Shown here piece by piece: positions 4,314 through 36,061 of a DNA stretch of 39,361 nt (its first letter is position 1; every line of letters begins with the position of its first letter). The notes beneath the pieces were generated by a model, which was not told where the DNA came from, did not search any database, and was given only the letters and a program-made list of their open reading frames with translations. Position numbers and translations under genes: made by a program. The DNA comes from Candidatus Magasanikbacteria bacterium GW2011_GWA2_56_11. Its GTDB lineage: Bacteria; Patescibacteriota; Patescibacteriia; Magasanikbacterales; UBA922. The stretch covers positions 1 to 39,361 of the forward strand of contig LCRX01000007.1 in NCBI GenBank assembly GCA_001004885.1. The letters run 5' to 3'.

Positions 4314-4342
4314 TTGTCGGCCGCCGGCTAATATGGTATAGT
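4314..4342 (+). promoter_or_regulatory. Sigma70-like promoter: TTGTCG - 17 nt - TATAGT with extended -10 (TGG)
   Basis: TTGTCG at 4314-4319, TATAGT at 4337-4342; immediately 5' of palindromic element copy 1 and gmhA-like gene. Confidence 0.5.
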
Positions 4343-4354
4343 CGCGCTAACTTT

Positions 4355-4511
4355 GGACTGGTAGTGCGTTATTAGCAATTCTCTTTTCTAAGTCGAGCCG
4401 AAACATAGACTGATTTTCGCGGCACCAAAACTCGCTCCTACAGGCTCAGACATTGGGGCCGCGAAAATCAGTCTATGTTTCGGCTAAAAAGGGGAAAGTC
4501 GCTATGAGTTC
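4355..4511 (+). repeat. Palindromic element A, copy 1 (~157 bp)
   Basis: Perfect 28-bp inverted arms AGCCGAAACATAGACTGATTTTCGCGGC (4396-4423) / GCCGCGAAAATCAGTCTATGTTTCGGCT (4458-4485) around a 34-nt loop; ends GGACTGGTAGTGCGT / GTCGCTATGAGTTC; related copies at 33603 and 35908. Confidence 0.92.
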
Positions 4512-4546
4512 TTTCCGCCGGGCGCCTATATTTTTTTCGATCTTAT

Positions 4547-33550: not shown

Positions 33551-33580
33551 TTGTCGGCTCTTTCGGGCCTATGGTATACT
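33551..33580 (+). promoter_or_regulatory. Sigma70-like promoter TTGTCG - 18 - TATACT with extended -10 (TGG)
   Basis: TTGTCGGCTCTTTCGGGCCTATGGTATACT; same architecture as promoter at 4314. Confidence 0.5.
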
Positions 33581-33602: not shown

Positions 33603-33758
33603 GGACTGGTAGTGAGTTATTAGCAATTCTACCCTAAGTTGAGCCGAAACATAGACTGATTTTTACGGCACCAAAACTCGCTCTTATAGGCTAGGACATT
33701 GGGGCCGTAAAAATCAATCTATGTTTGAGGCGAAAAGGGGGAAACCCGCTATGAGTTC
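33603..33758 (+). repeat. Palindromic element A, copy 2 (~156 bp)
   Basis: GGACTGGTAGTGAGTTATTAGCAATTCT...AGCCGAAACATAGACTGATTTTTACGGC-loop-GCCGTAAAAATCAATCTATGTTTGAGGC...CGCTATGAGTTC; 4-bp ATAA on both flanks. Confidence 0.9.
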
Positions 33759-33782: not shown

Positions 33783-35903
33783 ATGAAAACAAAAAAACAA
33801 GTCAACCAAGCCTCGATTAGAGTCCGGGCGGTAGGCCTACTCGCTGTCCTGAGCTTGGTTTCTTCTGTGCTGCCGCGGGGGGTTTTGGCTAAGACTAGCA
33901 ATGATCCGTACGCCTATCAGTGGGGTTACGAGGACACGGGCGTGTATCGCGCCTGGGACAAAACCACTGGCTCGCGCGATGTGGTCGTGGCCATAATTGA
34001 CAACGGTTTTGACCATTTTCACCCGGATTTGCGGGACAATGTTTGGCAAAACGAAAAAGAAATACCGGACAACCGGATCGACGACGACAAAAACGGCTAT
34101 ATAGACGATGTTTACGGCTGGAATTTTATGGTCGAAGACGCCAATCGCGACGGCGTGGTAGACCGGGGGGAGCGGCAGGGGACGAATGATCCGCGGCCGG
34201 ATTTAAGCCAAGTTTCGAGCGAGGACAAAGCTACCGGAGTCGTCCATCACGGCACGTTCGTGGCCGGGCTTATCGGGGCTACGGGCGGCAACCAGCGCGA
34301 CGGGGTCGGGCTCAACTGGCAGGTTAAGCTCATGAATCTAAAGGTTATCGGCGCCAACGGCGTCGGCGACGTGGCGCCGCTCGCGCCGGCGATACGCTAC
34401 GCGGTTGATAACGGCGCCCATATTATCAATATCAGCATGGTCGGCAGCGAGGACGAGTCGGTCCGCCAGGCGGCGCTGTACGCCTACGCCCGCGGCATCG
34501 TTCTGGTCGCGGCGGCCGGCAACAATTATTTCAATCTGAATACTAATCCTTCTTACCCGATTTGTATCGACGCGCAGCAGCCGCAAGAAGTGCTCATCGG
34601 CGTCAGCGCTATCGGCCGCGACCATCGCCTGGCGCAATTCTCCAACACCGGTTCGAGCTGCATTGATATTACCGCGCCCGGCGTCGCGATTAATTCCGCG
34701 GTCGGCTACGCGCCGGAATACGGTTTTGCCGAAAGCTACGGCCGCCTCTGGCAGGGTACGTCGTTTGCCGCTCCGTTTGTGAGCGGCGCCGCGGCGCTGA
34801 TCAAAAGCCTGCAGCCGTCTTGGCGGGCGCCCGAGATTTACGAGGCCATTTTACAGACGGTCCACCGGACGCCGCCGACCGATGTGGCGGCGTACGAAAA
34901 TTTATACGGCGCCGGCCGGCTTCAGATAGACAAAGCCGTGCAATACGCGCTCGATAGGGCAGTCTCTCCGGCCGCGCCGGCAGAACCGCCGCCCATAGCG
35001 ATTCTGCCGGTACCGAACGCAGAACAGCCGGCCGCGCCGGCCCCGGCCAAGGACAAGCGTCGTCTGAGCGCTTACAATCCGGCTACCGGCGAGTTTGCGG
35101 AAGCGTATCTCGGCAGTGATAAGCGGGCCTCTTTGGAGCGGCCGGAAACGGCCGGCGCCGAGACGGCTGCCCAGGGTAAAAACGACCCGGGCGAAGACAT
35201 TTTTGTTGTCGCCCGCAAAAAAACCGGCGCGACTTACGAACTGTCGGTTTACAACCGCAAGTGGTGGCGCGAGAGCCGTTTTGAACTCAATCTCGCCGGT
35301 CCGGTAGTGCTGGCGGTCGGCGATGCCACCGGCGACGCGGCGCCGGAAATAATCGTCGGCCCGCGGGGCGCGAGCCGGGAGGTTTTCCGGATTTTTTCGC
35401 TCTCGGGCCAGGAACTCGCGGCGGTCAAACATACTGCCGCGCACGAAGGCGTGGGGCTCACAGTGTCCGGACAAGAGGTGAGCGCCGTTTTTTGGGACCA
35501 GGGCGAACTGCGGCTGCATCGCTACCAGGGCGGCGCGCTCGCCGGTTCTTTCGCGCTTCAGGATCTTGGCCGCCGGGCAGAAGTGGCGCTGGCCAATCTG
35601 GACAAGGATTCCGAACTGGAATATGTTTTTGGTTCTGGCCCAAAGGTAACGCCGATCGTGGCTGAGTACGAGCGCGACGGATCGTTCCGCCTGTCATTTT
35701 CAGTGCCGGGCGGGAACGGTTCCGGCGTGTCCGTTATGGCCTTTGATTACCTGGATGACGCCCGGGACGAGATTATCGCCTATCCCAATTCCGGTCCAGC
35801 GGTCGTCGGCGCCTGGAAGGCAAACGGCAAACGCGCGGCCGAGTGGTCGTTCTTCGCCGGACGAAAGCTCGATCGGTTTAATGTTTTGCGGTATAATAGC
35901 TGA
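33783..35903 (+). CDS. Secreted subtilisin-like (S8) serine protease with C-terminal FG-GAP/VCBS-like region
   Basis: Signal peptide; catalytic VVVAIIDNGFDHFHPDL (Asp), HHGTFVAGLIGA (His), QGTSFAAPFVSGAAAL (Ser); C-term AVGDATGDAAPEIIVGP. Confidence 0.9.
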   Translation: MKTKKQVNQASIRVRAVGLLAVLSLVSSVLPRGVLAKTSNDPYAYQWGYEDTGVYRAWDKTTGSRDVVVAIIDNGFDHFHPDLRDNVWQNEKEIPDNRIDDDKNGYIDDVYGWNFMVEDANRDGVVDRGERQGTNDPRPDLSQVSSEDKATGVVHHGTFVAGLIGATGGNQRDGVGLNWQVKLMNLKVIGANGVGDVAPLAPAIRYAVDNGAHIINISMVGSEDESVRQAALYAYARGIVLVAAAGNNYFNLNTNPSYPICIDAQQPQEVLIGVSAIGRDHRLAQFSNTGSSCIDITAPGVAINSAVGYAPEYGFAESYGRLWQGTSFAAPFVSGAAALIKSLQPSWRAPEIYEAILQTVHRTPPTDVAAYENLYGAGRLQIDKAVQYALDRAVSPAAPAEPPPIAILPVPNAEQPAAPAPAKDKRRLSAYNPATGEFAEAYLGSDKRASLERPETAGAETAAQGKNDPGEDIFVVARKKTGATYELSVYNRKWWRESRFELNLAGPVVLAVGDATGDAAPEIIVGPRGASREVFRIFSLSGQELAAVKHTAAHEGVGLTVSGQEVSAVFWDQGELRLHRYQGGALAGSFALQDLGRRAEVALANLDKDSELEYVFGSGPKVTPIVAEYERDGSFRLSFSVPGGNGSGVSVMAFDYLDDARDEIIAYPNSGPAVVGAWKANGKRAAEWSFFAGRKLDRFNVLRYNS

Positions 35904-35907
35904 TAGT

Positions 35908-36061
35908 GAACCCATAGCGAGTCCCCCCCTCGCCGAAACATAGACTGATTTTTACGGCCCCAAAACTCGCTCTTACAGGCTCAGACATTGGTGCCGCGAA
36001 AATCAGTCTATGTTTCGGCTCAAGTTAGAGAATAGAATTGCTAATAACTCGCTACCAGTTC
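35908..36061 (-). repeat. Palindromic element A, copy 3 (~154 bp), inverted relative to copies 1-2
   Basis: GAACCCATAGCGAGT...GCCGAAACATAGACTGATTTTTACGGC-loop-GCCGCGAAAATCAGTCTATGTTTCGGC...AGAATTGCTAATAACTCGCTACCAGTTC. Confidence 0.92.

Follow-up and report, generated by a model that had tools for sequence, protein, structure and literature searches.

The window, i.e. the whole stretch of 39,361 nucleotides that was analysed, contains three copies of a palindromic element of roughly 155 bp, as an earlier note on this DNA had described, at 4355-4511 and 33603-33758 on the plus strand and at 35908-36061 on the minus strand. Copy 1 has two arms of 33 nt (4396-4428 and 4453-4485, 97% complementary) that enclose the loop AACTCGCTCCTACAGGCTCAGACA (4429-4452, plus strand, in the sense of transcription); the -10 box TATAGT (4337-4342, plus strand) ends 12 nt upstream of this copy, and a SIS-domain protein gene (PF13580; 4547-5224, plus strand) lies downstream. 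Copy 2, with arms of 28 nt (33647-33674 and 33699-33726, 93% complementary), precedes the gene for a protease of the S8 family (subtilase; PF00082; 33783-35903, plus strand), and the promoter-like site before it consists of TTGTCG at 33551 and, after a spacer of 18, TATACT (33575-33580, plus strand), which ends at an atypical spacing of 22 nt upstream of the element. Copy 3, with arms of 32 nt (35932-35963 and 35988-36019, 91% complementary), lies between the -10 box TATAAT (35892-35897, plus strand), which ends 10 nt upstream, and an NAD-dependent epimerase/dehydratase gene (PF01370; 36154-37167, plus strand). The element has two unequal ends, A and B. In copies 1 and 2 the A-end is on the left, facing the promoter, and the core is flipped with respect to the ends, whereas in copy 3 the B-end is on the left and promoter side, and core and ends stand in their majority arrangement, a reversal between copies that is absent from the earlier note.

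A subterminal motif at one end only and a loop common to all three copies had both been proposed, and both are borne out: GTTATTAGCAATTCT is so placed and matches the window 3 times where 0.07 matches are expected, and the loop pattern likewise matches 3 times, against 0.03 expected. The flanking repeats are shorter and less regular than first described. Copy 1 is indeed flanked by a target duplication, but one of 3 bp, TTT/TTT (4352-4354 and 4512-4514, as read from the sequence), and not longer; the ATAA reported on both flanks of copy 2 is present, but forms an imperfect duplication with one end one base out; copy 3, as stated before, has no target duplication. When folded as single-stranded DNA, copy 3 reached z = -7.6 relative to shuffles, and an Rfam search of the window gave no match at gathering score.

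Copy number, mobility and anatomy of the element

The count of three copies falls well short of what the element's own genome holds (1,249,622 bases, 23 contigs). The element was matched at 40 scored places, and patterns for the loop and the ends raised the total to 46 loop-bearing loci, so that the genome-wide search for loop plus arms suggested earlier returns many copies and a restriction to the three in the window does not apply. Element length varies from 150 to 162 bp, and the statistics below use the 41 of the 46 loop-bearing copies that have both ends. A search of 58 further genomes from this family and order did not find the element. In a scan of named genomes the A-end matched once, apparently within a coding sequence of a Kangiellaceae MAG and without the rest of the element, which was judged a chance match; many 15-mer matches in viral contigs were also taken as chance, and the loop pattern had no match in these contigs.

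An exact target duplication of 3 bp was observed at 28 of the 41 copies, compared with 6.5% when the flanks of different copies are paired, and an exact 4-bp flank match at one copy only; the duplicated site is A-W-T-like. The element is present in many dispersed copies with terminal inverted repeats and 3-bp target duplications, it encloses no transposase reading frame, and autonomous relatives with matching ends exist (L218, L230, L235, L238 and L239, described below). These features support its identity as a MITE, and the original proposal of a non-autonomous mobile element holds.

The ends of the MITE (A, GAACTGRYAGTGAGTTATTAGC; B, GAACTCAYAGCGAGTTTCCCCC) follow the inverted pattern GAACTSNYAGYGAGTT. 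In loop orientation, the majority consensus runs from the B-end through the left arm, the loop and the right arm to the A-end, AGAATTGCTAATAACTCACTATCAGTTC, and the consensus loop with its closing pairs is CCAAAACTCGCTCTTACAGGCTCAGACATTGG. Mean pairwise identity amounts to 94% in the loop, 92% in the right arm, 87% in the left arm, 84-86% in the ends and 64-79% in the linkers; the loop, previously thought to be as conserved as the arms, is thus more conserved than both. The arms are 93% Watson-Crick paired across 28 pairs, with several compensated pairs, and their mismatches on the sense strand comprise 16 G-U against 22 A-C. Because this leaves no sense-strand G-U bias, the pairing points to a palindrome at the DNA level and not to an RNA selected in one sense, and selection, or conversion of one arm by the other, would have maintained it.

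The subterminal motif of the B-end, AAACTCGCT, recurs in the loop, and the core that contains the loop has changed direction repeatedly. Such an inversion would take no more than recombination between the arms, or template switching from one to the other. The core is flipped with respect to the ends in 5 of the 41 copies (window copies 1 and 2, C2:21645, C13:73913 and C14:74013), and since most of these are closest, by core or by ends, to different unflipped copies, it has flipped at least three times. All 36 unflipped copies have the B-end upstream, and the flipped ones have the A-end upstream in three cases and the B-end in two, a difference from the 0 of 36 with the A-end upstream (p = 0.0009) that involves small numbers and two close relatives among the five. 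Read economically, the loop may act as an accessory site that resembles an end and has a part in deciding which end leads. A sequence-specific role of the loop, as the earlier note had it, is plausible in view of its conservation, its copy of AAACTCGCT and the link between flipping and polarity, and it is from these features that we infer the role.

One locus on contig C14 (L031:2452-3961; G000:C14, about 55951-57460) has a ribosomal-protein-L9-like gene with half a copy of the element on one side and a full copy, inverted, on the other. The A-end of the latter, with its last bases missing, adjoins the reading frame of an Era-like GTPase that is itself without its N-terminal part (the start of the MMR_HSR1 domain), and the arrangement reads as a rearrangement at the element. 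We had considered the half copy (C14:55940-56044) as evidence for use of the loop as an end and rejected it, the break lying on the side of the motif opposite to that required.

Transposase-encoding relatives

Of the 86 genomes of the order that were searched, 12 have the end pattern GAACTSNYAGYGAGTT, namely the element's own genome and 11 others, and a reversed-pattern control gave no match in the same 86 genomes. Some of these loci in relatives are MITEs with other interiors, and some are insertion sequences with a length of about 1 kb. Of the latter, L218 and L230 were read throughout; each contains two reading frames, which carry DUF4096 (PF13340) and DDE_Tnp_1/DDE_Tnp_1_2, respectively, with an A-run ahead of G-rich sequence near the frame junction; the domain matches are to PF13340 (2.6e-13) and PF01609 (2.8e-11) in L218, and to PF13340 and PF13586 in L230. 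Partial transposase-bearing relatives are present in other genomes (L223, L224 and L229), and protein searches retrieved further transposase copies in the class and the phylum. The A-end lies before the transposase gene and the B-end at its 3' end, and the target duplications, directly readable at five of the transposase-bearing loci, are AAA (L230), TTT (L218), AAT (L235), ATA (L238) and AGA (L239).

The predicted transposase of the full-length relatives is closest to the IS5 family. Its split halves score 47.7-59.8 bits (59.8 and 48.8 for one pair) with the NCBIfam equivalog transpos_IS5_3, below the cut-off of 110 bits because the protein is split, and the relatives resemble the IS5 family and its MITEs in their two-frame transposase, their size of about 1 kb, their short terminal inverted repeats and their short duplication. 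On the basis of the ends that it shares with these relatives, the MITE is probably mobilised by the same IS5-family transposase. A search of the element's own genome gave no match to DDE_Tnp_1, to rve or to the orfB protein of the relatives, and none to Y1_Tnp (PF01797), which the same search found in 5 control genomes. The transposase with matching ends that the earlier note had proposed to look for is thus encoded by relatives in other genomes, with none found in this one, from which it was presumably lost. IS5 transposases from plasmids (about 28-41% identity) were also considered, and no comparable ends or promoter link were recognised at the Caballeronia and Acaryochloris loci examined.

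Position and polarity relative to promoters

Many copies of the MITE lie at a nearly fixed distance from a -10 box, typically TATACT or TATAAT. With the copies read along the loop, 21 of 41 have a -10 hexamer whose end lies 10-13 nt ahead of the element (mode 12), against a mean of 1.5 and a maximum of 6 with shuffled flanks (2000 shuffles). In the sense of transcription, the box ends 10-13 nt outside the element in 22 of 41 copies, nearly all of them at 11-13 nt, and random AT-flanked sites in the same intergenic regions give an expectation of 1.82 of 41 and a maximum of 9 (20,000 simulations); the other 19 copies have no strict -10 box at this distance. With six bases assumed between the -10 box and +1, a gap of 12 nt corresponds to a duplicated triplet near +4 to +6, and transcription presumably starts at the usual distance from the box. 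The downstream gene is co-directional at 42 of 46 loci (p = 5e-9), its context being based on gene calls from a simple codon-usage script without annotation. The ten downstream genes that were scanned comprise, besides the three of the window, those for an ATP synthase alpha/beta subunit, CTP synthase, iPGM, PPDK, a nucleotidyl transferase and a phosphoribosyltransferase, among others. At C9:90716 (L203) and C2:68237 (L201) an ATG comes immediately after the element end or one base on, and since it adjoins the end in this way, these mRNAs were possibly near-leaderless before insertion.

The same end, B, faces the promoter in 38 of 41 copies and in all eight transposase-bearing copies. A -10-like box was found outside the B-end of the latter at 4 of 8 loci by the strict rule (10-13 nt) and at 8 of 8 by a relaxed rule, set after inspecting the data, in which one of the three middle hexamer bases must match; the shuffle maxima were 3 of 8 and 5 of 8, respectively (3000 shuffles). 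For the pooled ends of the relatives' other MITEs the spacing was not significant (2 of 30, strict), and in several MITEs of the relative G042 a -10 box is located at 9-11 nt from one of the ends.

We consider it highly probable that the element is an IS5-mobilised MITE with unequal ends and a palindromic core, placed about 12 nt past the -10 box and usually with its B-end on the promoter side. An IS5-family transposase, apparently absent now from the element's own genome, would mobilise the MITE and place it some 12 nt past the -10 hexamer in promoters of the sigma70 type, duplicating 3 bp (AWT-like) and as a rule turning the B-end to the promoter, and the host gene would acquire a hairpin leader of about 155 nt with its promoter and coding sequence intact. 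Such an insertion would be mild, because both are kept and a leader is merely added. The spacing probably arises in the insertion step, through recognition of promoter DNA or of the promoter complex by the transposase. That an IS5-type lineage lands, in a polarised manner, on the initiation complex itself at about +4 to +6, with the loop as a third, invertible end-like site, is a more tentative proposal that we rate as rather unlikely. The earlier note had set a mobile element against fixed leaders of genes, which is a false alternative in this case, since it is targeting to a position shortly after the -10 box that makes the copies leaders.

Untargeted insertion could give a similar picture if copies survived only between promoter and start codon, where they spare both. 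Copies with a clear context are all intergenic and ahead of genes, and in some the start codon is within a few bases, as survival of this kind would have it. However, tens to hundreds of bases of non-coding DNA are left downstream of many insertions, and since this DNA should be an equally harmless target, survival alone is insufficient for the spacing, which is fixed even though many sites offer 50 to over 200 more such bases. With 22 of 41 copies observed at this spacing against 1.8 of 41 for AT sites drawn at random from these intergenic regions, and with one end leading in 38 of 41 copies and on the same side in the eight transposase-bearing relatives, we regard untargeted insertion as very unlikely. 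The transposase might instead read a DNA motif, TATAMT followed by about 9 nt and AWT, with no need for a working promoter, an explanation that has somewhat less than an even chance in our judgement and that likewise has the -10 region as the target of insertion. In line with motif reading, the triplet at the target site is AT-rich and of the AWT type, and insertion of E. coli IS5 is reportedly influenced by structural features of the DNA (PMC5493358); against it, free instances of the motif in 212 kb are mostly in genes (120), and the free intergenic instances are directed to a co-directional gene in 42 of 60 cases and opposite in 18 of 60, compared with 22 of 22 co-directional among the occupied strict sites. 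Purifying selection could account for part of this contrast between free and occupied motifs.

The copies might also be domesticated regulatory RNA leaders, spread earlier by transposition, whose hairpin and conserved loop now control the downstream genes. The loop is the most conserved segment, it stands in the sense of transcription in nearly all copies, and it could be predicted to pair with the 5' end (AGCGAGUUU with AAACUCGCU), all of which would suit such leaders. The same element, however, shows no sense-strand excess of G-U over A-C (16 against 22), at least 2 copies (C13:73913 and C14:74013) carry the loop in antisense, the downstream genes examined have no obvious common theme, and the same polarity is found in transposase-bearing relatives without this loop, which together make a regulatory origin of the pattern improbable.

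Comparison with known systems

Oriented promoter targeting is known from TnGBS, ISLre2 and ISKra4, i.e. from prokaryotic Mutator-type transposases, whose insertions lie 15-17 bp upstream of -35 boxes, with duplications of 8-9 bp. The MITE differs from these in being downstream of the -10 box, in its 3-bp duplication and in its IS5-type transposase, and falls outside that group; it looks like a downstream-side counterpart of TnGBS/ISLre2 targeting with an IS5-type transposase. A fixed distance past the -10 box is not among the features described for E. coli IS5 (PMC5493358), from which the MITE differs in this respect, and in the open-access literature searched, which is incomplete in its coverage, we found no report of oriented promoter targeting by IS5-type elements. 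If the proposed targeting is real, it would represent a second route to mild transposition, tied to promoters like that of TnGBS/ISLre2 but on the opposite side and by means of a different transposase family. The tolerance of a 1.25-Mb genome for 46 copies ahead of genes, those for an ATP synthase subunit and CTP synthase among them, would then be explained, and the coupling of transposition and transcription initiation could be studied in a simple test system.

The MITE also resembles REP/RAYT and ERIC sequences (PMC3733652 and PMC2759123) in being short, palindromic, intergenic, present in multiple copies and without a transposase reading frame. It is set apart from both by its ends, its 3-bp duplication and its promoter-linked insertion, and from REP/RAYT also by the lack of a Y1 (RAYT) transposase in its own genome and by its length, REPs being 20-40 bp. 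Among the MITEs of the relative G042, L216, L220 and L222 have the same ends and other palindromic arms, so that the architecture of ends, palindrome and loop recurs in them; their loops share ATGTT-GTCCTACTG with one another and have TCCTAC-GGC-like letters in common with the loop of the window element. In three further genomes (L231 in G034, L225-L228 in G035 and L233 in G072), the same end sequence is found around widespread palindromic repeats of the TGTCATTCTGGCGAAAGCCAGAATC type.
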